Below, in pieces: positions 3,615 through 36,411 of a DNA stretch of 36,437 nucleotides; within the stretch, counting starts at the first letter, position 1, and each line of letters begins with the position of its first letter. A program made the translations under genes and the position numbers. The DNA is from Nitrospira sp. (GTDB taxonomy: Bacteria > Nitrospirota > Nitrospiria > Nitrospirales > Nitrospiraceae), in the NCBI GenBank assembly GCA_021323395.1, contig JAJONL010000015.1, positions 1-36,437 of the forward strand. The letters run 5' to 3'. The notes beneath the pieces are model-generated. The model did not search any database, was not told the DNA's origin, and saw only the letters and a list, made by a program, of their open reading frames with translations.

Positions 3615-4283
3615 ATGGGTCAGAAGACACATCCAATTGGTTATCGGATCGGCTATAACTACACTTGGAGCTCCCGCTGGTACGCCGATAAGGACTACGC
3701 CAGGCTTCTCCATCAGGATATTAAAATTCGAAAGATGGTCAAAGCCAAGCTGTATCACGCTGGGGTGGCCAAGGTGGAAATAGAGCGGTCCGGCGACCAA
3801 ACCAGAGTCATCATCCACACGGCCCGCCCCGGCATTATCATCGGCCGTAAGGGAGCTGAAGTCGACAAGCTCAAGGCCGCCCTGGAAAAGGAATACTCCG
3901 GTCAGGCCTATATTACCGTGAAGGAAATCAAGAAGCCGGAATTGGACGCGCAGTTGGTCAGTGAAAATGTCGCCACGCAATTGGAAAAACGAGTGGCCTT
4001 TCGTCGGGCCATGAAACGTAGCGTGCAGTCGGCTCTGCGTTTGGGTGCGCAGGGAATCAAAATTATGGTCGCCGGGCGTTTGGGTGGTGCGGAAATCGCG
4101 AGGACCGAATGGTATCGCGAAGGTCGCGTTCCTCTGCATACGCTGCGCGCTGACGTGGACTACGGGTTTGCCGAAGCCCACACCACGATGGGTCAGATCG
4201 GGGTGAAGACGTGGATTTATAAGGGTGAACTTCTGCCGGCCATTCAGCTCAAGCCGGATTCAGCGCTGGGCCGACTTGGTTAA
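3615..4283 (+). CDS. rpsC: Ribosomal protein S3
   Basis: This 222-residue S3 has an N-terminal [13 protein letters not shown] motif and a KH RNA-binding domain with GRKG at residues 77-80. S3 forms part of the mRNA entry site on the 30S subunit. The length and the C-terminal domain ([10 protein letters not shown]) are normal. It lies between rplV and rplP as in most bacteria. Confidence 0.97.
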
Positions 4284-4311
4284 AGAATCTCGATAAGGAA
4301 AAGGTGGGTTT

Positions 4312-4728
4312 GTGTTAGCGCCAAAGAAAGTCAAGTTTAGAAAAATGCAGAAGGGGCGAATGCGAGGGAAGGCCTACCGCGGGGGCGAGATCACGCTCGG
4401 TGAATTCGGCTTGAAGGCCCTTGAACCAGGCTGGATCACCAGTCGTCAGATCGAAGCCGCCCGCATCGCCATTACTCGATTCGTGAAGCGTGGTGGGCAG
4501 GTATGGACCAGAATATTTCCCGACAAGCCCATTACCAAGAAGCCGGCCGAAACCCGTATGGGTAAGGGCAAAGGAAACCCCGAGTATTGGGTAGCCGTCG
4601 TGAAGCCTGGACGAATCATGTACGAGATGGGGGGAGTGGCTCCGGATGTGGCGAAGCAAGCCTTGAAATTGGCGGCTTATAAGCTTCCCATTGCGACGAA
4701 GTTTGTTGCGCGCGGTGAATTTCTGTAA
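4312..4728 (+). CDS. rplP: Ribosomal protein L16
   Basis: This 138-residue L16 starts with GTG at 4312 behind an AAGGTGGG-like site. Conserved features include [14 protein letters not shown] near the N terminus and [19 protein letters not shown] about residues 83-101. L16 organises the A-site tRNA region of the 50S subunit. Confidence 0.97.
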
Positions 4729-4755
4729 CCTGTAGCAGGTGTGAGTGGTGATCTG

Positions 4756-4977
4756 ATGGATGTGAAGGATCTGAGCGGGCTCACGGTCGACGAATTGTCT
4801 GAAAAAGAAAAGCAGTTGCGGCAGGAACTGTTCAATTTTCGGTTCCAGCTTGGCACTGGTCGACTCGAGAATCCAATGCAAGTGCGGAATACAAAGCGCG
4901 ATATTGCCCGGCTCAAAACGGTGAGACGGCAATTGGAATTGCTCCAGACACAATCCGGCCACCCCGGCGGGAAGTAA
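4756..4977 (+). CDS. rpmC: Ribosomal protein L29
   Basis: This 73-residue L29 is two antiparallel helices with the family motif [20 protein letters not shown] and [14 protein letters not shown] 4756 was preferred over an in-frame GTG at 4741, because the latter has no convincing ribosome binding site and would make the protein longer than usual. L29 lies beside L23 at the tunnel exit. Confidence 0.93.
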
Positions 4978-4991
4978 GTGAGAAGAGGCGT

Positions 4992-5261
4992 ATGAAGGAA
5001 GGCCAACAGCATCGTCGTGAGTGGTACGGTCGCGTCGTCAGCAACAAAATGAGCAAGACGGTCGTGGTTGCCGTGGAGCGGTCGGTGATCCATCCGGTCT
5101 ATAAGAAAGTTCTCCGTCGCGTGACCAAGCTTAAAGCCCATGATGAGGGCAATGTGTGCAAGGTGGGAGATCGGGTTCAGTTGGCAGAGACCCGGCCGCT
5201 CAGCAAAGACAAGCACTGGCGTGTGGTACGCGTCATGGTGAAGGGGCAGCCTGAAAAGTAA
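4992..5261 (+). CDS. rpsQ: Ribosomal protein S17
   Basis: This 89-residue OB-fold protein has the S17 motifs [18 protein letters not shown] and [21 protein letters not shown]17 is a primary 16S rRNA binder in 30S assembly. The start ATG follows AGAAGAGG. The 14-base gap from rpmC suggests joint translation. Confidence 0.96.
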
Positions 5262-6068: not shown

Positions 6069-6722
6069 ATGGCAAAAGTAGAGAAGGGTAAAGGCGGCAA
6101 GGGTGCAACGCCAAGGTCCTCGGCAAAAAGGGAAGCTGCCGCACCTGAGGTGTCCCAGGATTCTGGAAGCGAGCATCAGTTCATCCCGAGGTTGAGAGAG
6201 ACTTATCGGGAGCAAGTCGTGCCGGCTCTCATGAAAGAGTTTGGATATGGGAACCTGATGCAGGTGCCTCGGCTGGAGAGAATCGTACTGAATGTGGGGA
6301 TGGGCGAGGCTATTCAGAACGTAAAACTGTTGGAAAGCGCATCTGCTGAGTTGGGTATTATTACCGGGCAAAAGCCGGTCACCACCAGGGCGAAAAAAGC
6401 GATCGCGGGTTTCAAGCTGCGGCAAGGTATGCCGATCGGAGCCAAAGTTACGCTTCGCAGCCGGCGTATGTGGGAATTTCTCGATCGGTTGATTTCCCTC
6501 GCGCTTCCACGCATTCGTGATTTTCGAGGCATCTCACCAAAGGCGTTCGATGGACGGGGGAACTATACCCTGGGATTGAAGGAACAATTGATCTTCCCTG
6601 AAATCGAATATGATACGGTCGCTTCCATTCATGGGATGGATATTACCATCGTCACGACGGCCCGTACGAATGATGAAGGCAAGGCCTTGCTCAAGCATTT
6701 GGGTATGCCATTCAGGGCCTAG
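6069..6722 (+). CDS. rplE: Ribosomal protein L5 with basic N-terminal extension
   Basis: The L5 core begins near residue 40 ([20 protein letters not shown]) and is complete, with the typical [20 protein letters not shown] segment and the family C terminus. L5 binds 5S rRNA in the central protuberance. The protein has 217 residues, against roughly 180 for typical L5. The extra ~38 residues are low-complexity, rich in K, G, A and S. No plausible internal ATG or GTG near residue 40 would remove the extension, so it appears real. Confidence 0.95.
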
Positions 6723-18007: not shown

Positions 18008-19525
18008 ATGAAGTTGCGACTGGATCTCAGGCTCAGCCAAAAACTCATTATGACGCCGCAGTTGCAGCAGGCGATCAAACTACTGCAATTGTCCCGGTTA
18101 GAGCTTCAGCAGAGCCTGCAGCAGCACCTGATGGAAAATCCGTTGTTGGATGAGTTAGTGGCAGAGACAGAGGAAAATGAAGAGGCTGCGACGGCCGATC
18201 GTGAACAATCAGAAGCGCCGCCGACCGCCTCCAGTGATACGGGGAGCGAGAGCGACGACAAGCCGGCTGAGAGCGGAGAGAATGCCGAAGAGTTCTCGGC
18301 CTCAAGCTGGGAAGATTATTTTGATACCGATATGCGTCGAGGGGAAACGGACTACAGTGCTTCGTCCAAGGAAGAGTTTCCCTCCTATGAACAAACCGTG
18401 GCGAAGTTTACCTCGCTGGAGGATCATCTTGTCTGGCAGCTGTCCTTGTCAGGGATGACCGATCGGGAAAAGGCCATTGGACGGCTCATCATCGGCAATT
18501 TGGATGACGACGGTTATCTTCGAATGACACTTGAGGACTTGGTGTCAGGAACGCCCTATTCCGTGGCGGAAGCTGAGTCGGTACTGAAAGATGTACAAGG
18601 TTTCGATCCAAACGGTGTGGCAGCGAGAGATCTGCCTGAATGCCTTCTCCTCCAGCTTAAATTCTTGGGCCGGAGCCAAATCGGCTCGCTGGGCTCCCGC
18701 CCAGGGGTGCTGAAGGGATCGGTGCTGGAAGCCATCGTGCTGCACCACTTGAAGGATCTCGAAAAAAAGCAATACAGCCGGATAGCCAAGGCGTTAACTA
18801 TCTCGATGGAGGACGTGTTTCAGGCGACTCGCATCATCGAAGGCTTGGAACCGAAACCTGGACGGCCGTTTTCCAACACTCAGAATTATGCCATCGTGCC
18901 GGACGTATTTGTGGTGAAGAACGAAGGCGAGTGGGAGGTCTTGCTCAATGATGACGGTCTGCCGCGCATGCGCATCAGCCCCTACTACAAGCAGCTCATG
19001 TCGTCCGGGCAGTCCGGGACGGCGGAAACCAAGGCCTATTTGGATGATAAACTCCGAGCGGCGCAGTGGGTGATCCGGAGCATCGAACAACGCAACAAAA
19101 CGATTGTGAAAGTTGTTTCGAGCATTGTGAAGTTTCAAGAAGGCTTTTTCGAACGCGGCATCCAATATTTGAAACCGCTGGTCCTCAAGCAAGTCGCCGA
19201 GGATATCGGGATGCATGAATCGACCATCAGTCGCGTGACCGCCAATAAGTACATGTATTGTCCGCAGGGCATGCTGGAGCTCAAATTTTTCTTTAATGCG
19301 GGTCTCCAGCGAGCCGACCAGCCGATGGACATGCTGTCGTCGTTGACGGTGCGCGAGATGATTCGGAAGATGGTGGAAGCAGAAAATCCAAGCAAGCCAC
19401 TGAAGGATGAGGAAATCGCCGCGAAACTTCGCACCCAGCAAGTCTTGATCGCTCGGCGGACGGTGGCCAAATATCGCGCGGAGGACAACATTCCATCGGC
19501 GACTCAACGAAAACGGTTCTTTTAG
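18008..19525 (+). CDS. rpoN: RNA polymerase sigma-54 factor
   Basis: This 505-residue RpoN has the Q/L-rich activator-interacting region I (residues 1-50, KLIMTPQLQQAIKLLQL), an acidic linker (about 55-110), the core-binding domain, a helix-turn-helix (ESTISRVTANKYMYCPQG), and the C-terminal RpoN box ARRTVAKYRA at about 482-491. Sigma-54 needs AAA+ activators and often serves nitrogen, pilus and flagellar genes. It lies between lptB and hpf as in many Gram-negatives. No clear -24/-12 site was seen in this window. Confidence 0.97.
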   Translation: MKLRLDLRLSQKLIMTPQLQQAIKLLQLSRLELQQSLQQHLMENPLLDELVAETEENEEAATADREQSEAPPTASSDTGSESDDKPAESGENAEEFSASSWEDYFDTDMRRGETDYSASSKEEFPSYEQTVAKFTSLEDHLVWQLSLSGMTDREKAIGRLIIGNLDDDGYLRMTLEDLVSGTPYSVAEAESVLKDVQGFDPNGVAARDLPECLLLQLKFLGRSQIGSLGSRPGVLKGSVLEAIVLHHLKDLEKKQYSRIAKALTISMEDVFQATRIIEGLEPKPGRPFSNTQNYAIVPDVFVVKNEGEWEVLLNDDGLPRMRISPYYKQLMSSGQSGTAETKAYLDDKLRAAQWVIRSIEQRNKTIVKVVSSIVKFQEGFFERGIQYLKPLVLKQVAEDIGMHESTISRVTANKYMYCPQGMLELKFFFNAGLQRADQPMDMLSSLTVREMIRKMVEAENPSKPLKDEEIAAKLRTQQVLIARRTVAKYRAEDNIPSATQRKRFF

Positions 19526-19621
19526 GCCTCGGCATGGAACGTCATGAGACGCTTCAGTATGAAAATCATCTCAACGGACTCGAATGCATCTGGCGTGTTG
19601 AGCCCGAGAAATGAGGATGGC

Positions 19622-20173
19622 ATGCGACTGATGATCACGGGACGGCATGTGGCGGTGACCCCGGCTTTGCGGGAGTATGTCGAAACCCGCATGGAGCGAC
19701 TGGATCGGTACGGATTGAGACTGGGGACATTACAGATCCTTCTGAGTTTGGAAAAGTTTCACCATGTGGCCGAAGTCGTGGGTGTCGTCCAGGGGCGGCG
19801 CCTCCAAGCGAAGACGTCCACAGAAGAAATGTATGCTTCGATCGATGAGGTGGTGGATAAGCTCGGGGCGCAGTTGCGAAAGTTGAAGGAGCGGCGAGCC
19901 AATCACAAATTTGGAGATCAGCCTCGCGTGCGGGCGTTGGTGCGCAGGGTTCCCAGTCGGGACCAGAGCGAGATCGAAGTGGTCCGTCCAACTCTCAAAA
20001 CCATGACTGTGGAGGATGCCGTGACTGCGCTGCATGCTTCCCAGGAGAGTATCTTCATGTTCATGAATGCCTCTTCAGGGAATGTGCAGGTTCTTCAACG
20101 GTTATCCGATGGGAAAGTGTCGCTCATCGATCCGGCGCGCGGTCGCGCTCGTGCCTCCCATGGCCGCGCTTAA
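19622..20173 (+). CDS. hpf: Long-form ribosome hibernation promoting factor
   Basis: This protein has 183 residues from ATG 19622, which has GAGG six bases upstream and gives the expected MRLMITGRHVAVTPALREYV start. An in-frame ATG at 19544 would add 26 atypical residues. The N-terminal S30AE domain (about 1-100) blocks the decoding site. The C-terminal domain (about 128-178, MTVEDAVTALHASQESIFMF) is that of long HPF, which pairs 70S ribosomes into 100S dimers. Confidence 0.92.
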   Translation: MRLMITGRHVAVTPALREYVETRMERLDRYGLRLGTLQILLSLEKFHHVAEVVGVVQGRRLQAKTSTEEMYASIDEVVDKLGAQLRKLKERRANHKFGDQPRVRALVRRVPSRDQSEIEVVRPTLKTMTVEDAVTALHASQESIFMFMNASSGNVQVLQRLSDGKVSLIDPARGRARASHGRA

Positions 20174-26675: not shown

Positions 26676-27833
26676 ATGACAACCCTTGAGCGCGACAGCC
26701 CTCGCCAAACCATTCGCGTAGACCTTGGAGCGCGAAGTTATCCTATCTTCATTCAGCGAAACCTATTGGAGTGCCTGGGCAAAGAGCTGAGGAAGCTCGG
26801 GCGCGTAGGAAAAGTTGGAATCGTCACCGACCGACATCTTGCCGGTCGCTATCTCAAGCCGGTGAATCGCGTTTTGAAAGCGGCCGGTTACACGGTCCTT
26901 CCGATCGTGTTTCCCCCAGGAGAACGGACCAAAACTCTCCGGTCCATTTCAACGATTATGAACATGTTGGTAGATGCCAGATTCGAGCGCACATCGACGT
27001 TGCTGGCTCTGGGCGGCGGGGTGATCGGTGATCTGACGGGATTCGCGGCGGCGATTTACCAGCGTGGCATTCCCTTCGTGCAGGTCCCTACCAGCTTGGT
27101 GGCGCAGGTTGATTCCAGTGTCGGCGGGAAGACGGGCGTGGATCACCCGAAGGGAAAGAACCTTATCGGCGCGTTTAATCAGCCGCGTGCGGTTCTGATC
27201 GATCCGGCGACGCTGACGACCCTGCCGGCGCGTGAATGGAAGGCGGGGCTTGGAGAGGTCATCAAGTATGGCGTGATCGCAGACGAGGCCTTCTTTGGAT
27301 ATGTGGAGAGCCAGATCGAGCCCATCCTGAAGTTGGAGGGTGCCGTGGTGACGCATATCGTAAAACGATCCTGTGAAATCAAAGCGCAGGTCGTGTCCGA
27401 AGACGAACGCGAGTCGGACCGGCGTCGGATCCTGAACTTTGGTCATACGATTGGCCATGCACTCGAATCGTTAGGAGGATACCGAGGATTGATCCATGGC
27501 GAAGCCGTCGCGATCGGCATGATCTATGAATCAGACCTGGCGAGGCATCTGGGACTGTGTGATGAAGGCGTTGTCGTCCGTCTCAGAACATTGATACAGG
27601 CAATCGGCTTGCCGACATCTCTGCCTCAAGTCACCTTTAACGCGCTCTGGCGCGCCATGCAGCAGGACAAGAAAGTATCGGGGGGGACGGTGTACTGTGT
27701 ATTGCCCGAACGAATCGGCTCGGTCCGGATCGTTCCCCTGGAGAAGGACGCCACCCGCGCATGGTTTGATGCGACCCGCGCGCGCCCGCCCCGGCGGGGA
27801 AAGAATAGCACGACCACACCACGTTTCCGGTAG
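26676..27833 (+). CDS. aroB: 3-dehydroquinate synthase
   Basis: This 385-residue enzyme of the shikimate pathway turns DAHP into 3-dehydroquinate with NAD and a divalent metal. The NAD-binding LALGGGVIGDLTGFAA runs from about residue 110. Metal ligands E194, H257 and H274 are in place (GLGEVIKYG, NFGHTIGHALE, IHGEAVAIGM). A basic ~20-residue tail follows the domain. It lies six bases before the antiterminator gene, so the two are probably co-transcribed; the link in function is not evident. Confidence 0.96.
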   Translation: MTTLERDSPRQTIRVDLGARSYPIFIQRNLLECLGKELRKLGRVGKVGIVTDRHLAGRYLKPVNRVLKAAGYTVLPIVFPPGERTKTLRSISTIMNMLVDARFERTSTLLALGGGVIGDLTGFAAAIYQRGIPFVQVPTSLVAQVDSSVGGKTGVDHPKGKNLIGAFNQPRAVLIDPATLTTLPAREWKAGLGEVIKYGVIADEAFFGYVESQIEPILKLEGAVVTHIVKRSCEIKAQVVSEDERESDRRRILNFGHTIGHALESLGGYRGLIHGEAVAIGMIYESDLARHLGLCDEGVVVRLRTLIQAIGLPTSLPQVTFNALWRAMQQDKKVSGGTVYCVLPERIGSVRIVPLEKDATRAWFDATRARPPRRGKNSTTTPRFR

Positions 27834-27839
27834 GAGAGC

Positions 27840-29099
27840 ATGGCAGCGAAGCGGACGGTTACCCAGGTAGAGCAGGCCTTGCGAGAAAAAACGCGCGAGG
27901 TGGACGTGCTGCATCGCATCAGCGAGTCGATCAGCAACACTCTGGATCTGGAGTCTGTGCTACGGCATATCGTCGATATGGTCGTAGAAGTGACGAAAGC
28001 CGATGCCTGCCTGCTCTACCTGATCTCCGACGGCAGGGACGAGCTAATCCTGAGAGCCTCTAAAAATCCCCATCCCAAACTGATCGGACGCATCACCATC
28101 GGGTTGGGCGAAGGGATCACCGGATGGGTAGCTCGCGAACGGACCCGTGTGGTGATTCCGAACAGCGCGAGCGACGATCCCCGGTTCAAGTTTTTTCATA
28201 ATCTTCCTGAAGATCGCTACCAGGCGTTTGTCTCGGTTCCCATTACGACCAAACAGGAGGTCGTCGGGGTCATCAATGTGCAGCATAAGCGGTCGCGCCG
28301 GTATCGTCCGGACGAATTGGCATTGCTGTCGACGATCGCCACGCAGGTGGGTGGGGCCATTGAGAATGCTCGGCTGTACGATCAGATGACACGCAAGGCC
28401 CTACAACTCGATACGCTGTCGCAGGTGTCGGAAACGGTGTCGTCGAATCGATTGATCGAGGATGTGTTGCAATTGATTGTGACGATGACGGCGCAAATGA
28501 TGGGATCCAAGATCTGTTCCATCATCTTGTTGGACCAGGCGACGGGTGACCTGCGCATCGCAGCCACGCAAAGCTTGAGCGAACAGTACCGGCGGAAACC
28601 CAACGTCAAGATCGGCCAGAGTATCAGCGGGCGCGCCGTTCAGGACCGTCGGCCGATTATTGTGCTGGACGTCACGAAAGACAGCACGTATGTGTATCCC
28701 GATATGGCAGCGAAGGAAGGCCTCTGCTCCCTCTTGTGCGTGCCGATGCTGGTGCGTGAGAAGGCGATCGGGGTCATTAACACCTATACGTCCAAGCCGC
28801 ATACGTTCACGGCGGAGGATGTGAAGCTGATGCAGGCGATCGCCAATCAGGCTGCGATTTCCATCGAGCACACGACATTACTGGAAAAGTCGTTTGAGAT
28901 GCAGGAAGCGTTGCAAGTGCGTAAGCTGCTGGATCGAGCCAAGGGATATCTCATGCGGGCGAAGCGGCTCTCGGAAGAGGACGCCTTCAAACTGATCCAG
29001 CGCCAAAGCATGGATCTTCGCAAGTCCATGCGAGAGATTGCCGAAGCCATTCTGCTGGCAGGCGAAATCGAAGATCGGGCCGATAAAAACCGGGCATAA
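27840..29099 (+). CDS. GAF-GAF-ANTAR RNA-binding antiterminator
   Basis: This 419-residue cytoplasmic sensor has two GAF domains (about residues 25-180 and 195-350; the second has VPMLVREKAIGVINTYT, the first VPITTKQEVVGVINVQH). They are followed by a short helix and an ANTAR domain (about 356-405, RKLLDRAKGYLMRAKRLSEE then EDAFKLIQRQSMDLRKSM). ANTAR proteins such as NasR, AmiR and EutV bind paired hexaloop hairpins in leader RNAs and prevent termination. GAF domains bind small molecules or dimerise; the ligand here is unknown. A matching RNA target lies 1.1 kb downstream in the porin-urt leader. No receiver domain is present, so a partner kinase is not required. Confidence 0.93.
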   Translation: MAAKRTVTQVEQALREKTREVDVLHRISESISNTLDLESVLRHIVDMVVEVTKADACLLYLISDGRDELILRASKNPHPKLIGRITIGLGEGITGWVARERTRVVIPNSASDDPRFKFFHNLPEDRYQAFVSVPITTKQEVVGVINVQHKRSRRYRPDELALLSTIATQVGGAIENARLYDQMTRKALQLDTLSQVSETVSSNRLIEDVLQLIVTMTAQMMGSKICSIILLDQATGDLRIAATQSLSEQYRRKPNVKIGQSISGRAVQDRRPIIVLDVTKDSTYVYPDMAAKEGLCSLLCVPMLVREKAIGVINTYTSKPHTFTAEDVKLMQAIANQAAISIEHTTLLEKSFEMQEALQVRKLLDRAKGYLMRAKRLSEEDAFKLIQRQSMDLRKSMREIAEAILLAGEIEDRADKNRA

Positions 29100-29102
29100 C
29101 TG

Positions 29103-30068
29103 TTACGGCGTGCGGTCGGAAGGTCGAACGGGACGTGGCTGCCTTGACGGCGCATTGCTCCGGCTGTTCCGTTGCTCACTCAATTCACGTTTGATGTCCT
29201 GAAGTTCCTTTCTCAATTCCTCGACTTCTGAATCCTTCTTTTTCAAATCTTCTCGAATGGCCCGAAGATCGGTGTCGGTTTCCGTCGGCTGAGCCGGCGG
29301 TGGCGGAAATGCCTGAATCTTCTCGGTGGGTAGACTTGTGACGGGTGCTGTAGGTGACGAAGCGGGGAGTTTTGCCAGCAGGTCATAATCGATGATCAGG
29401 ACGTTCGCCGGGTCTTCCGAAAATGCCGGGGCGAATTGATCGGAACGCAGGGCTTCCGCTGGCACGAACAAGACTTGCCGATTCAGAAGGCCGCTTGGCT
29501 CGGGCAGGCGGCGGTTCGGCATGTTCACGGTATCAGGCTCGTCTCGGCGTTGCCGGTATTCGGTCAGATAAATATACAATGACCGACCGTACGCAAATAC
29601 CTGCCCGCTCGTGGTTTCTGGGAATGAATGCCGCAGGGGTGGTTCCGAGGAGCCGACCGCTGCTCCCGCCCGCCCGCGATAGCCGCCGTCGCTTGCCTGA
29701 AGCAGTCTGAACCCAACCTGCTGATCCGACGCGGCCTGTTTCAATCCTTCTGCGATAGCGGGCGCGAGAAAGGCAATCTCCGTTTCTGAAAAGACGGGCG
29801 CGGTCGGCTTTCGACTGGAGGCCAGAGCGCGCAGAAGTCCGGTTTCTTCACGGATCATCATGCCCTGTAAGCTGCGCGCGATCAGGGTCTGGTCGAGTCG
29901 AATGGGATGGCTGGCCTGAAATTGACGATCAGGAAGACGATCCAGATATACCGTGCCTTGCGCGGTGTCACGGACGAGCAGGTCGACTCGCGAACCGGTC
30001 GTACAGCCGACTGCCAGCAGGCCCCAGGCCAATGCCGATGCCAATGTGACCGACCGGTAGAACTGCAT
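29103..30068 (-). CDS. Unrecognised lipoprotein with C-terminal coiled coil
   Basis: This protein has 321 residues when started at the ATG whose complement is at 30066-30068. Its N terminus MQFYRSVTLASALAWGLLAVGC is a lipoprotein signal with the acylated cysteine at residue 22. The body has no family I recognise. The last 60 residues form a charged coiled coil (DLKKKDSEVEELRKELQDIK) after a proline-rich linker. It is the only minus-strand gene here, convergent with the antiterminator gene (three bases between stops) and divergent from the porin. A cell-envelope role is inferred from the signal only. Confidence 0.8.
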   Translation of the reverse strand: MQFYRSVTLASALAWGLLAVGCTTGSRVDLLVRDTAQGTVYLDRLPDRQFQASHPIRLDQTLIARSLQGMMIREETGLLRALASSRKPTAPVFSETEIAFLAPAIAEGLKQAASDQQVGFRLLQASDGGYRGRAGAAVGSSEPPLRHSFPETTSGQVFAYGRSLYIYLTEYRQRRDEPDTVNMPNRRLPEPSGLLNRQVLFVPAEALRSDQFAPAFSEDPANVLIIDYDLLAKLPASSPTAPVTSLPTEKIQAFPPPPAQPTETDTDLRAIREDLKKKDSEVEELRKELQDIKRELSEQRNSRSNAPSRQPRPVRPSDRTP

Positions 30069-30160: not shown

Positions 30161-30190
30161 TTGACAGCGTTGCATTCAAAAGCGTATACA
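30161..30190 (+). promoter_or_regulatory. Sigma70-type promoter of the porin-urt operon
   Basis: A perfect TTGACA (30161-30166) is followed after 18 bases by TATACA (30185-30190, five of six). Transcription would begin near 30197, just before the hairpin pair at 30205-30276. The 18-base spacer is one longer than ideal. No -24/-12 sigma-54 pattern was found. Confidence 0.65.
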
Positions 30191-30204
30191 CCCCACCTGT
30201 GTGC

Positions 30205-30276
30205 GTCAGAGGGCCGGACAACGACGTCCTGACTTCGTCGCAGACATCAAGAGCGCAGAGGACAATGACGTCCTTT
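30205..30276 (+). promoter_or_regulatory. ANTAR-type two-hairpin antiterminator RNA
   Basis: Hairpin P1 has stem GGAC (30216-30219) with GTCC (30226-30229) and loop AACGAC. A lower helix GTCA/TGAC (30205-30208 with 30230-30233) may add to it across an asymmetric bulge. Hairpin P2 has stem AGAGGAC (30257-30263) with GTCCTTT (30270-30276) and loop AATGAC. Both loops have six bases with A at 1 and G at 4, as known for ANTAR targets. The 3' arm of P2 shares bases 30272-30276 with the terminator stem, so P2 and the terminator exclude each other. Confidence 0.8.
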
Positions 30277-30311
30277 TGGTCCGATGGTTGGACCGGAAGG
30301 GCGTTTTTTTT
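30272..30311 (+). terminator. Leader terminator of the porin-urt operon
   Basis: CCTTTTGGTCC (30272-30282) pairs with GGACCGGAAGG (30290-30300) in an uninterrupted 11-bp stem containing two G-U pairs, with loop GATGGTT. After GCG come eight T (30304-30311). It stands 61 bases upstream of the porin start codon, so it acts on the operon's own transcript and would stop it unless the P2 hairpin forms. Confidence 0.85.
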
Positions 30312-30371
30312 GCGCGCTGGCTCCTCCGGTCTGGTTCCTTCCAATCGTATGTAACCAGGAGGGCAATCAGG

Positions 30372-31772: not shown

Positions 31773-33027
31773 ATGAGCTCTCAGAAACCCCAGGATGTGG
31801 AGGACACGATATTCGGTTCGACGCCCGAGCCGCCTTCCTCGCGGCGCGAATTTTTGGTGCATGGTTCTCGAACCGCGGTCGGCCTGGGGGTCGCGGCATT
31901 GCTGGGAAACCTGGGGCACTGGGCCCTTTCCTACGGGGCCGACAAGGAGCCGATCAAGATCGGCGTGTTGCATTCGCTGAGCGGCACGATGGCCATCAGC
32001 GAAGTGTCCTTGAAGGATGTCGTCTCGATGGCGGTCGAAGAAATCAACGCGAAGGGCGGGCTGTTGGGACGCCAGCTGAAACCGGTTATCGTCGATCCGG
32101 CTTCGAACTGGGACTTGTTTGCGGAAAAGGCCAAACAATTGTTGGTGCAAGATAAGGTCGCGGTGGTCTTCGGTTGCTGGACGTCGGTCAGCCGGAAGTC
32201 GGTCTTGCCGGTGTTCGAAAAGAATAATGGATTGCTCTTTTACCCCGTCCAGTATGAAGGGGAAGAATGTTCACGGAACGTATTCTACACGGGTGCGGCG
32301 GTCAACCAGCAGGCGGTGCCGGCGGTAGAATATCTGATGAGTAAAGAAGGAGGCGGATTTAAAAAGTTTTATCTGCTTGGAACCGACTACGTGTATCCAC
32401 GGACGACGAACAAGATTCTCCGCGCGATGTTGCTGGCCAAGAAAGTGTCCGCAGCCAACATCATGGAGGAATACACCCCTTTCCACCATCAAGATTATCA
32501 AACCATTGTCGGAAAGATTAAGAAGTTCGCCGCCGGTGGTGGCGCCTGCGTCATCAGCACGATCAATGGAGACAGCAATGTGCCGTTCTATAAGGAATTT
32601 GCCAATCAGGGGTTGCGTTCAGAAGACGCGCCCATCATGGCGTTCAGCGTCGCGGAGGACGAGCTGCGTGGAATGGACAAGACGGCCTTGGTCGGCCATC
32701 TGGCGGCCTGGAATTATTATCAGAGCGTTGACACGCCGCAGAACAAGCAGTTTGTGGCCAACTTCAAGGCCTACTGCAAAAAGAATAATTTGCCGGACGG
32801 TGACAAGCGCGTCACCGACGATCCAATCGAGGCCGCCTATTTTGGCGTGCATGTCTGGAAGCAGGCCGCACAAGCCGGTCCTGATCGGCGAAATTCTCAA
32901 GGATGGCCAATTCAAAGTGGTATCGCGCTCAAAAGGCCTGGTTAAACCAGAACCCTGGAGCGAATACACAAACCCAGAAAAAGGATGCGATTGGGTAAAA
33001 CATCAAGGAACCTATAAGAAGGCCTGA
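31773..33027 (+). pseudogene. urtA: Urea ABC transporter substrate-binding protein UrtA, frameshifted
   Basis: The gene reads well as UrtA from ATG 31773: a Tat signal with SRREFL (residues 23-28), then IKIGVLHSLSGTMAISEVSL and DDPIEAAYFGVHVWKQAAQA. At about 32869-32879 the frame changes. The original frame runs on to a stop at 32945 with unrelated residues. The correct C terminus (HKPVLIGEILKDGQFKVV, ending GCDWVKHQGTYKKA) continues in the next frame to 33027. Compared with family members about 30-40 residues are missing at the junction, so this is a deletion, not a single-base slip. As read, no normal UrtA could be made. Confidence 0.8.
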
Positions 33028-33052
33028 CGAGGATAGTCGCTCAGACGCCGGT

Positions 33053-34482
33053 ATGAATGAAAGTACGCTGCGAATGAATCTCGTCGTAGGGATGCTGTTG
33101 GTCTGGTGCTGGGTGGCATTGGGCGTGAATGATGGGTTGGCGGGGGAGGCGCTCACCAGCGCGTCTCCGCCGTTTCAGCTTGAGCAGGCGTTCAAAGACT
33201 TGGCGAGTGACGAGGAATCGACGCGCGAGCAGGCGATTGGCCTGCTGATCGAAGAGGGAAACGCGACTTCACTGGCACGGCTGGAGGAGTTGCGGGTCAA
33301 TGCGGATCGAAGCCTGCGCATGGCGATCAAGCCGGTGGCCGATGCCTGGCGACAACGCGCCAATCTGGCCAGCCCGGATCCCGACCAGCGGCGATCGGCG
33401 GCGGCCGACCTGGGAAGCAGTGGACGGACAGTGGCCATCCCTTGGCTGGAGGCTGCGGCCCGCTCCGAATCCCACCGGTGGGTTCGTTATGCGATGGACG
33501 AGTCGACGCAGTTGCTGAAGCTCGCCTCAGCCGATCCTGCCGTAAAGGCTCAGGCTGCCGCGAAATTGGGCGAGATGCGCAGCCAGAATGCGGTTCCGGC
33601 ACTGAAAGAACTGGTGCAAGCCGCCGATGACCCGAAGGGCACCGAACAGCAAAAGACCGTCGCGCCGGCTGCCGCCGCCGCCATCAATCAAATCGAAACC
33701 TGGAATGTCTGGTCCACGGCGATTGAAACCTTGTTTCGCGGCATCAGCCTCAGTTCCATCCTGCTGATCATGTCCGTGGGTCTCGCGATCGTGTTCGGCC
33801 TGATGGGCGTGATCAACATGGCGCATGGCGAACTGATGATGATCGGCGCCTACGCCACCTTTGTGATGCAGGAATGTTTTAAGCTCTATGTTCCTCCGGC
33901 TTGGTTTGACGCCTACTACCTCGCGGCCCTTCCGGCCTCGTTTCTGGCCGCGGCCCTATTCGGATTGTTCCTGGAGGCGACGGCGGCGCGCAGGTCATGG
34001 TAGGCGTGTTCCTGCCTTTCAACCGCCTGTTCATCATCGGGCTCTCCATTCTCTGTGTCACCGGGATTTATGGCTTGCTGTTCCGCTCGAGTGTGGGCCT
34101 GCGGGTGCGGGCCGTCATGCAGAACCGCAACATGAGTGCCTGTCTGGGAATTCCCACCAGGAAGGTGGACGCCTACACTTTTGCCTTCGGTTCCGGTCTG
34201 GCCGGCATCGCGGGCTGGGCCTTGACCCTGGTCGGGAATGTGGAGCCGGGACTCGGGCAAAACTACATTGTGGACTCATTCATGGTAGTAGTGACGGGGG
34301 GGGTTGGAAAACTTGCCGGGACGATCATTGCCTCGCTGGGGATCGGCGGCTTGAATAAACTCATGGAGCCGAGTCTTGGAGCGGTCTATGGAAAGGTGTT
34401 GATCCTCGTGCTGGTCATTCTCTTCCTGCAGTGGCGACCCTCGGGGCTGTTTGCGGTCAAGGGGCGCCACGCCGAGGGGTAA
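33053..34482 (+). pseudogene. urtB: Urea ABC transporter permease UrtB, frameshifted
   Basis: The first part (to 34003) has a signal-like helix, an alanine-rich helical-repeat periplasmic domain (about residues 45-220) as in long UrtB proteins, then membrane segments with GLAIVFGLMGVINMAHGELM. After FLEATAAR (about 33990) the frame is lost. The rest (VMVGVFLPFNRLFIIGLSIL to FLQWRPSGLFAVKGRHAEG) continues in another frame to 34482. Roughly 50 residues expected between them, including the stretch usually containing YGRPLETLLATWG, are absent. Either a true internal deletion or an assembly fault. Confidence 0.8.
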
Positions 34483-34498
34483 GTAGAGAGCAGGGAGA

Positions 34499-35647
34499 AT
34501 GGAAGAACCGTTGACACCACAGTCGAAGGTTGAGCGAAACGAAGGAACCATCTTTTGGGTCGTCGGGTTCGTGCTTCTGTTTGTCCTGCCGGTGCTGAAC
34601 GTGTTGCCTGCGGAAGATTCCTGGCTGCATCTGTCCGATTTTGCGCTGAACCGTTTCGGGAAGTTTCTGGCCTTTGCCATCCTGGCGCTCGGCCTCGATT
34701 TGATTTGGGGCTATGCCGGTATCCTCAGTTTAGGACAAGGGGTCTTCTTTGGCCTCGGCGCCTATTGCATGGGAATGCACCTCATGCTCACGATCGGAAG
34801 CGAGAGTGTCTACGGCAGCGCCTTGCCGGACTTCATGGTGTGGAATCAGGTCACTGGATTGCCGTTTTTCTGGAAGCCCTTTTACAGCTTCACGGCTGCC
34901 GTATTCGCCGGTCTGCTGGTGCCGGCAGCCTTTGCGCTCTTGTTTGGGTTTCTCGCCTTCCGCAGCCGAATCCGCGGGGTCTATTTCGCCATTATCACCC
35001 AGGCGCTCGCGCTCATGGCTTGGCTGGTCTTCAATCGGAATGAAACGAATCTTGGAGGGACCAACGGCCTGACGGATTTCAAGACGATCCTGGGCTTTCG
35101 GTTGTCTGAGCCGGGGACGCAACTCGCGCTCTATGTCATCACGGTGTTGTGTCTGGGAGGAGCCTATCTGCTCTGCCGTTGGATCATCGTCTCGCGGGCC
35201 GGGCGAGTTCTGATTGCCATTCGTGACAGCGAACAACGAGTTCTGTTTTCCGGCTACTCGCCGGCCAATTACAAACTGTTCGTCTTCGTGGTGTCGGCCG
35301 CGCTGGCGGGTCTTGCGGGCATTCTCTATGTACCGCAAGTGGGGATCATTACCCCGGCGCAAATGGGTGTGCTGCCCTCGCTCGAAATGGTGATTTGGGT
35401 GGCGGTGGGAGGCAGGGCGACCCTGGTTGGAGCGATTGTCGGAGCGGTGGGCGTCAACCTGGGCCGCAGCCTTCTCACGAACCATTTTCCAGAATTATGG
35501 CCATTTTTTCTGGGCGGACTGTTCGTCGCTGTCGTGCTGCTGTTCCCTGATGGAGTCATGGGCATCACGAGAAAGCTGAGCGAGAAGGTTGCGAATCGGA
35601 CCGCCCCCCTGCGTAAAACCTCCGCGGTCGAGGAGGAACAGGTATGA
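34499..35647 (+). CDS. urtC: Urea ABC transporter permease UrtC
   Basis: This 382-residue LivM-type permease has about nine to ten membrane segments, with LDLIWGYAGILSLGQGVFFGL (one residue run of the family signature) and RDSEQRVLFSGYSPANYKL in the cytoplasmic coupling loop. UrtC and UrtB form the channel for urea. It is complete, starts at ATG 34499 after CAGGGAGA, and overlaps urtD (ATGA). The intact state contrasts with the broken urtA and urtB just upstream. Confidence 0.95.
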   Translation: MEEPLTPQSKVERNEGTIFWVVGFVLLFVLPVLNVLPAEDSWLHLSDFALNRFGKFLAFAILALGLDLIWGYAGILSLGQGVFFGLGAYCMGMHLMLTIGSESVYGSALPDFMVWNQVTGLPFFWKPFYSFTAAVFAGLLVPAAFALLFGFLAFRSRIRGVYFAIITQALALMAWLVFNRNETNLGGTNGLTDFKTILGFRLSEPGTQLALYVITVLCLGGAYLLCRWIIVSRAGRVLIAIRDSEQRVLFSGYSPANYKLFVFVVSAALAGLAGILYVPQVGIITPAQMGVLPSLEMVIWVAVGGRATLVGAIVGAVGVNLGRSLLTNHFPELWPFFLGGLFVAVVLLFPDGVMGITRKLSEKVANRTAPLRKTSAVEEEQV

Positions 35648-36411
35648 CGGAACATGGCTCCATCATCTATTTGGAAGGCGTGACCGTCGACTACGACGGT
35701 TTCAAGGCGTTGAACAATTTGAACTTCATCGTCAACCATCGCGAACTGCGCGTGGTGATCGGGCCGAACGGCGCCGGCAAGACGACGTTGCTCGATGTGA
35801 TCTCAGGCAAGACCAAGCCGGCGGCTGGACGCGTGATCTTCGGCAAAGACACGGATCTCATCGGCATGCGGGAGTATGAAATTACCCAGCTTGGGATCGG
35901 GCGAAAATTTCAGGCCCCCTCGATCTATAACAATCTCACCGTGTGGGAGAACCTGGATCTTTCGTTGAGCCGTCCCAGCAAAGGCGTGTTATCCACGTTG
36001 AGAGGCCAGTCCACCGCGGCAGAGCGGAAGCAAATCGACGAGGCTCTCGAGACCATCGGACTCACGGAGCAGGCGCCTCTGCGCGCAGGTTCCCTGTCCC
36101 ATGGCCAGAAACAATGGCTTGAAATCGGCATGGTCATTTTGCAAGATCCCGAATTGCTGCTGGTCGATGAACCGGTGGCCGGCATGACGGATGAAGAGAC
36201 CGCACAAACCGGTCGGCTGCTCCAGTCGCTGGCGGAGAAACATGCCATCGTCGTCATTGAGCACGATATGGAGTTTGTCCGGCAAATCGCCCGGACCGTG
36301 ACGGTGCTGCATGAGGGGACCGTCATCTGCGAGGGACTGGTGGAAAAGGTTCAGGCCGATCCCCGGGTGGTCGAAATTTATCTTGGCAGACAGAAAGTGG
36401 CGCACATTTAG
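35644..36411 (+). CDS. urtD: Urea ABC transporter ATPase UrtD
   Basis: This 255-residue LivG-type ATPase has Walker [10 protein letters not shown], the UrtD/LivG motif GIGRKFQAPSIYNNLTVWEN, signature LSHGQKQWLEIGM, Walker B LLLVDEPVAGM and H-loop EHDMEFV. It powers urea import with UrtE. urtE is expected just beyond the window; the last 26 bases hold only an ATG at 36417 that does not read like its usual start. Confidence 0.95.
   Translation: MTEHGSIIYLEGVTVDYDGFKALNNLNFIVNHRELRVVIGPNGAGKTTLLDVISGKTKPAAGRVIFGKDTDLIGMREYEITQLGIGRKFQAPSIYNNLTVWENLDLSLSRPSKGVLSTLRGQSTAAERKQIDEALETIGLTEQAPLRAGSLSHGQKQWLEIGMVILQDPELLLVDEPVAGMTDEETAQTGRLLQSLAEKHAIVVIEHDMEFVRQIARTVTVLHEGTVICEGLVEKVQADPRVVEIYLGRQKVAHI

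Follow-up and report, generated by a model that had tools for sequence, protein, structure and literature searches.

A probable ANTAR-controlled antitermination switch in the leader of a porin-urea transporter operon of Nitrospira sp., one site of a putative multi-operon regulon

Organization of the locus and its leader RNA

The window, which is the whole stretch of 36,437 nucleotides analysed in this study, carries an operon for a porin-like protein and a urea ABC transporter. Its leader contains two small hairpins and an intrinsic terminator, and a gene coding for a GAF-GAF-ANTAR protein is located upstream on the same strand. The features considered below are as follows.

26676–27833, + strand: aroB-like gene, immediately 5' of the ANTAR gene
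27840–29099, + strand: GAF-GAF-ANTAR protein of 419 aa (Pfam GAF and ANTAR), the proposed antiterminator
30161–30190, + strand: promoter box (TTGACA at 30161–30166, 18-base spacer, TATACA at 30185–30190)
30216–30229, + strand: hairpin P1, with the loop AACGAC at 30220–30225 and an outer stem extending to about 30209–30236
30259–30274, + strand: hairpin P2 (putative antiterminator), with the loop AAUGAC at 30264–30269
30267–30311, + strand: intrinsic terminator (up to 18 pairs, then eight T) that cannot coexist with P2
30372–31742, + strand: porin-like gene, the first of the operon, with no Pfam match
31773–36411, + strand: urtA, urtB, urtC and urtD (urea ABC transporter)

The porin-like gene is preceded by a Shine-Dalgarno sequence (AGGAGG, 30357–30362), 46 bases past the T run of the leader. 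Relative to their counterparts in related genomes (454 aa and 513–529 aa, respectively), urtA (31773–33027) and urtB (33053–34482) are each split by one frameshift, and both frameshifts are probably assembly indels in the draft genome. Judging from position and strand, the aroB-like gene is probably co-transcribed with the ANTAR gene; we take its product to be 3-dehydroquinate synthase, a name given by the look of the sequence and not by a family search. A lipoprotein without a Pfam family is encoded at 29103–30062 on the − strand, divergently from the leader, and its paralogs flank several of the putatively ANTAR-controlled operons in relatives.

The initial annotation had described two 15-base copies in the leader, each folding into a hairpin with a six-base loop, and both statements were borne out: the window sequence contains GGACAACGACGTCCT at 30216–30230 and GGACAATGACGTCCT at 30260–30274, and each copy folds into a GGAC/GUCC stem with a hexaloop (AACGAC in P1 and AAUGAC in P2) that has A at position 1 (A30220 and A30264, respectively) and G at position 4. 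The terminator with eight T that overlaps P2 was likewise found, whereas its claimed length of 11 bp was too short: the stem (30267–30305) comprises up to 18 pairs, counting G-U, and the T run lies at 30304–30311. P2 and the terminator exclude each other because the end of the P2 loop and the 3' arm of P2 are common to both.

Folding of the leader, which had been proposed as a check, gave a structure more stable than those of shuffled sequences (−64.2 vs −46.3 kcal/mol; z −4.6). When a growing transcript was folded, P2 appeared from about 30278 and the terminator took its place from about 30302; during the brief time between these points, a bound protein could determine which structure prevails. 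The full architecture, in which a pair of A1/G4 hexaloop hairpins is combined with an overlapping stem and its T run, was found once in the window and in none of 60 random windows with the same dinucleotide make-up. An Rfam search of the leader gave no family match above chance. The exact 12-base motif was no commoner in this genome than its reversed control, and thus single hairpins are meaningless without a second hairpin and a terminator. Set against the definition of ANTAR dual-hexaloop RNAs, the leader has the two hexaloop hairpins, A1 and G4 in both loops, and the overlap between P2 and the terminator, and the genome encodes an ANTAR protein. The distance between the hairpins is not eut-like (44 nt from loop to loop vs 24), a mismatch that we do not weigh in assigning the leader to the family, whose definition permits linkers of variable length (Ramesh 2012).

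Transcription likely starts near 30197, as judged from the promoter box. In 16 aligned leaders of the same operon, GCTTGACA is invariant and GCGTATA[CG]A is near-invariant. A standard promoter scan missed this box, since it applied a strict rule on the final T, which TATACA does not have. A start downstream of 30311 had been named as an observation that would speak against the switch; by sequence, the sole conserved promoter box lies upstream of P1, and no conserved box was seen downstream of the terminator in the aligned leaders.

Conservation of the leader and its association with the ANTAR gene

We aligned 26 leaders from relatives. Like the set of 16, they had been picked by a motif; because it fixes the inner pairs and the bases of the loops, loop invariance is partly by construction, and unbiased evidence comes solely from the terminator and the outer pairs. 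In this alignment, five of the seven P1 stem pairs and 11 of the 15 terminator pairs counted were changed on both sides, and the covariation of P1 and the terminator was far above that of shuffled and slid controls. For the structure formed by P1 and P2, 92.6% of cells were paired, compared with approximately 50% for slid versions. The P2 stem is nearly invariant, as expected from the fact that its bases serve two structures. Relatives therefore conserve both hairpins, the terminator and the upstream promoter box; the opposite had been regarded in the initial annotation as evidence against the switch.

A covariance model (R1) was used to search the genomes of the genus and family. Among the distinct leaders of the model-derived set, 84 of 112 have two strict A1/G4 hexaloops, and many of the remaining ones have G at loop position 1 with G4 kept. 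An automatic choice of the P2 loop by the best hairpin score was noisy, and we base no claims about P2 on it. The G1 loops agree with the crystal structure of EutV, where the protein contacts G4 but not A1 (PMC8934654). In leaders of several genera (loci L187–L192), the P2 loop before nadE is GAUGAC or GAAGAC, which offers natural variants for testing whether A1 is needed. The loop-to-loop spacing of 44 nt in the window falls within the range of 30–52 nt in relatives. A linker hairpin was predicted in most leaders by folding with no control; it may shorten the path between the loops, or the protein may tolerate more distance.

The GAF-GAF-ANTAR protein that had been assigned to 27840–29099 was confirmed by Pfam matches to GAF and ANTAR, the latter scoring 66.6 bits against a gathering cut-off of 27.3. 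Its gene, located 1.1 kb upstream of the leader, is the single ANTAR-domain gene of this genome, and one ANTAR gene per genome was found in all 29 genomes of the genus. Among 38 orthologs, the residues matching R142, K143, K149, E160, Y164 (as F), M172 and R175 of EutV are invariant or nearly so, and the RNA-contacting residues of EutV are thus largely retained; R168 and R177 are replaced by Q and S, respectively, in the Nitrospira protein. The predicted model contains a three-helix ANTAR domain (pLDDT about 90), into which a long helix extends from the second GAF domain; the arrangement of the domains was disregarded because the pTM of the model is 0.49. In a fold search, tandem-GAF proteins ranked first and the GAF domain of nitrogen-PTS enzyme I was the best single-domain match; by both sequence and fold, GAF 1 is most like this domain, for which glutamine binding has been described in other bacteria (PMC4848567). 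This likeness may offer a faint lead to the signal, and the protein probably senses nitrogen status.

The pairing of this protein with this leader, put forward in the initial annotation as an inference, gained support from the single ANTAR gene of the genome and from the distribution of gene and leaders over the family, where 138 of 147 genomes have either both or neither (Fisher 8e-27, a value that ignores shared ancestry). Both were present in 98 genomes and neither in 40; the nine discordant genomes comprised one with the gene only and eight with leaders only, and six of these eight are assemblies less than 90% complete. The corresponding numbers for near-complete genomes were 72 with both, 34 with neither, one with the gene only and two with leaders only. 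Almost all of the listed genomes with neither belong to one genus. In 16 of 18 genomes inspected more closely, nearly all of them without an ANTAR match, urtA is kept, and in the genomes without an ANTAR match the model found no convincing leader around urtA or 4 kb upstream. Where the ANTAR gene is absent, urtA is thus mostly retained without the switch; the leaders track the ANTAR gene and not the operon. In N. moscoviensis (locus L020, 8001–13000), the ANTAR gene lies beside urtA and urease genes, and no switch was found within 17 kb; control may be different in this species, or the leader may have diverged.

Switch sites and target operons in the genus and family

In each of the 29 genomes of the genus, model R1 detected one to eight switches; where the contigs show the distance, most lie no more than about 40 kb from the ANTAR gene. 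The genome studied here has three, of which one is the urt leader and two are arranged in tandem before nirC-cynS-nirA. The urt leader appears to be one site of a multi-operon regulon and not a private switch of urt. The tandem switches lie between glnA and nirC-cynS-nirA (locus L145, contig G000:C53, 1012–1214), and the second of them has a poor P1.

Throughout the genus and family, nitrogen-assimilation genes are located downstream of 96 of 117 sites, with gene names taken from NCBIfam and Pfam. The target classes are as follows.

porin-urtABCD
nadE-amt-glnB-glnD or porin-amt-amt-glnB-glnD
nirC, cynS and nirA with a CBS-domain gene, often behind a tandem pair 3' of glnA (an ABC transporter intervenes in one case)
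amt alone
porin-ureABC

A similar promoter box is present upstream of 66 of the 117 sites, mostly 15–50 bases away, whereas about 0.7 would be expected by chance over all sites (0.006 per 148 bp). The switch lies directly 3' of the ANTAR gene and 5' of nadE and glnD in several genera as well as in deep Nitrospirales; in the latter, the ANTAR gene is followed by the promoter box, the switch, nadE and glnD, and P1 is often non-canonical. From these sequences, the sites look like a lineage-wide nitrogen regulon under one GAF-GAF-ANTAR protein.

The non-nitrogen sites mainly concern a lipoprotein gene behind a tandem pair, next to a two-component system; the lipoprotein gene at 18756–19676 of locus L153 lies behind its own tandem switch. 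Model matches before a Band-7 gene (loci L160 and L161) were rejected, as they scored 24–29 bits and had no T run. Several individual loci show further features. At 6122–6231 (− strand) of locus L155, three ANTAR-like hexaloop hairpins in tandem and a terminator precede a gene for a 200-aa protein annotated without a function, with efflux genes nearby. From about 434 (+ strand) of locus L185, a 191-aa protein encoded behind a switch combines a signal-like N-terminus with a cyanate lyase C-terminal domain and, by its sequence, is possibly an exported cyanase. A carbonic anhydrase encoded behind a switch at about 4160–5020 (− strand) of locus L210 could supply bicarbonate for cyanase.

Proposed mechanism and comparison with known ANTAR systems

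The element could be an ordinary terminator accompanied by two small hairpins that are similar by chance, with no protein control. A strong intrinsic terminator is certainly there, but it separates a conserved promoter box from the operon that it would silence; P1, which lies outside the terminator, covaries; and the architecture, absent from random windows, recurs within genomes at several sites and follows the ANTAR gene in its distribution. We regard this explanation as very improbable and the least probable of those considered. Hardly more probable is a real switch operated by a different RNA-binding factor, with the GAF-GAF-ANTAR protein as a mere neighbor. A histidine kinase and LuxR-type regulator pair does lie beside some sites in relatives, and other regulators are thus available; however, the genome has a sole ANTAR gene, and gene and leaders are jointly present or absent in 138 of the 147 genomes.

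Alternatively, the RNA may be bound by the ANTAR protein with a main effect on translation or RNA stability, or the protein may promote termination. Among the predicted ANTAR RNAs of actinobacteria, most have no terminator, and overlap with the ribosome-binding site is frequent (PMC8164766). In the present leaders, however, the terminator has P2 bases in common and covaries, the Shine-Dalgarno sequence lies well beyond the T run, and the protein is an antiterminator in known terminator-type systems, making such an effect quite improbable, if slightly less so than the two explanations above. We conclude that the urt leader is very probably an ANTAR-controlled antitermination switch served by one protein that also serves other nitrogen operons. 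The ANTAR leader logic first proposed for it is thus supported by conservation, covariation, the single ANTAR gene and co-occurrence; the parts of the switch, their mutual exclusion and the nature of the target genes are backed by sequence in the same way.

We infer RNA binding, the direction of control, the start site and the signal, and propose the following course of events. Transcription would begin near 30197 from a sigma-70-type promoter. By default, P1 would form, followed briefly by P2, which the more stable terminator would displace, and transcription would stop at the T run before porin-urt. When active, the GAF-GAF-ANTAR protein would bind the loops of P1 and P2 while P2 exists (about 30278 to 30300) and keep P2 closed; formation of the terminator would be prevented, allowing synthesis of the porin and the urea transporter. 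Leaders of like build before the amt/PII/GlnD operon, the nitrite transporter/cyanase/nitrite reductase operon and others would respond to the same protein, which would set the read-through of nitrogen-assimilation genes. A more far-reaching possibility, which we consider unlikely, is that the protein is the master regulator of nitrogen assimilation throughout Nitrospirales, with an internal nitrogen metabolite (glutamine being the first candidate) sensed directly by the GAF domain that resembles that of nitrogen-PTS enzyme I, and with responses graded by single and tandem terminators. If this were true, two successive gates would control the use of nitrite and cyanate.

Nitrospira are major nitrite oxidisers, include complete ammonia oxidisers and are hard to manipulate. 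To our knowledge, their control of urea, ammonium, nitrite and cyanate uptake is largely undescribed. A short RNA signature now marks most of their nitrogen-assimilation operons and is recognisable in any metagenome; together with the one protein that probably reads it, it constitutes a directly testable regulatory circuit, and the tandem switches and natural G1 loops are ready variants for studies of ANTAR-RNA recognition.

The switch type itself is already known. The EutV mechanism has been established experimentally (PMC3369931, PMC8934654), and the eut leaders of Enterococcus faecalis resemble those described here in having two A1/G4 hexaloop hairpins, the second of which overlaps an intrinsic terminator, and in that one protein serves several leaders (PMC3369931, PMC8934654). 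EutV, however, is a REC-ANTAR response regulator of ethanolamine genes, whereas the Nitrospira protein has two GAF sensor domains. The loop spacing of eutP, calculated from the quoted loop positions, is 24 nt, compared with 30–52 nt in Nitrospira leaders, and a linker longer by 20 nt abolishes antitermination by EutV; spacing beyond that of eutP and the changes at EutV R168 and R177 count against EutV-like action. NasR of Klebsiella and its nasF leader are similar in that a one-component sensor-ANTAR fusion acts in nitrogen assimilation through a hairpin and a terminator (PMC7496416), but NasR has a nitrate-sensing NIT domain and controls a single operon, in contrast to the GAF-GAF protein and its multi-operon regulon.

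Our literature search yielded no report of ANTAR control in Nitrospira. Ueki and Lovley are said to have described, in 2010, ANTAR control (GnfR) of nitrogen genes in Geobacter. The initial suggestion that such control over urea transport may be new could still hold for Nitrospira but not for the type of target, as ANTAR leaders had been predicted in other bacteria before genes for PII, ammonium and urea transporters, nitrite reductase and glutamine synthetase (Ramesh 2012). The predicted nitrogen regulons of Desulfotomaculum acetoxidans, with 13 matches in six units and hence several per operon, and of Pelobacter are similar to that of Nitrospira but belong to other phyla (Ramesh 2012). Compared with these and with the GnfR regulon, the Nitrospira regulon differs in its nadE, cyanase and outer-membrane porin targets, in the tandem switches before nirC-cynS-nirA, and in the joint absence of gene and leaders from part of the family; within the literature searched, the lineage-wide regulon, these targets and the tandem arrangement appear to be undescribed.
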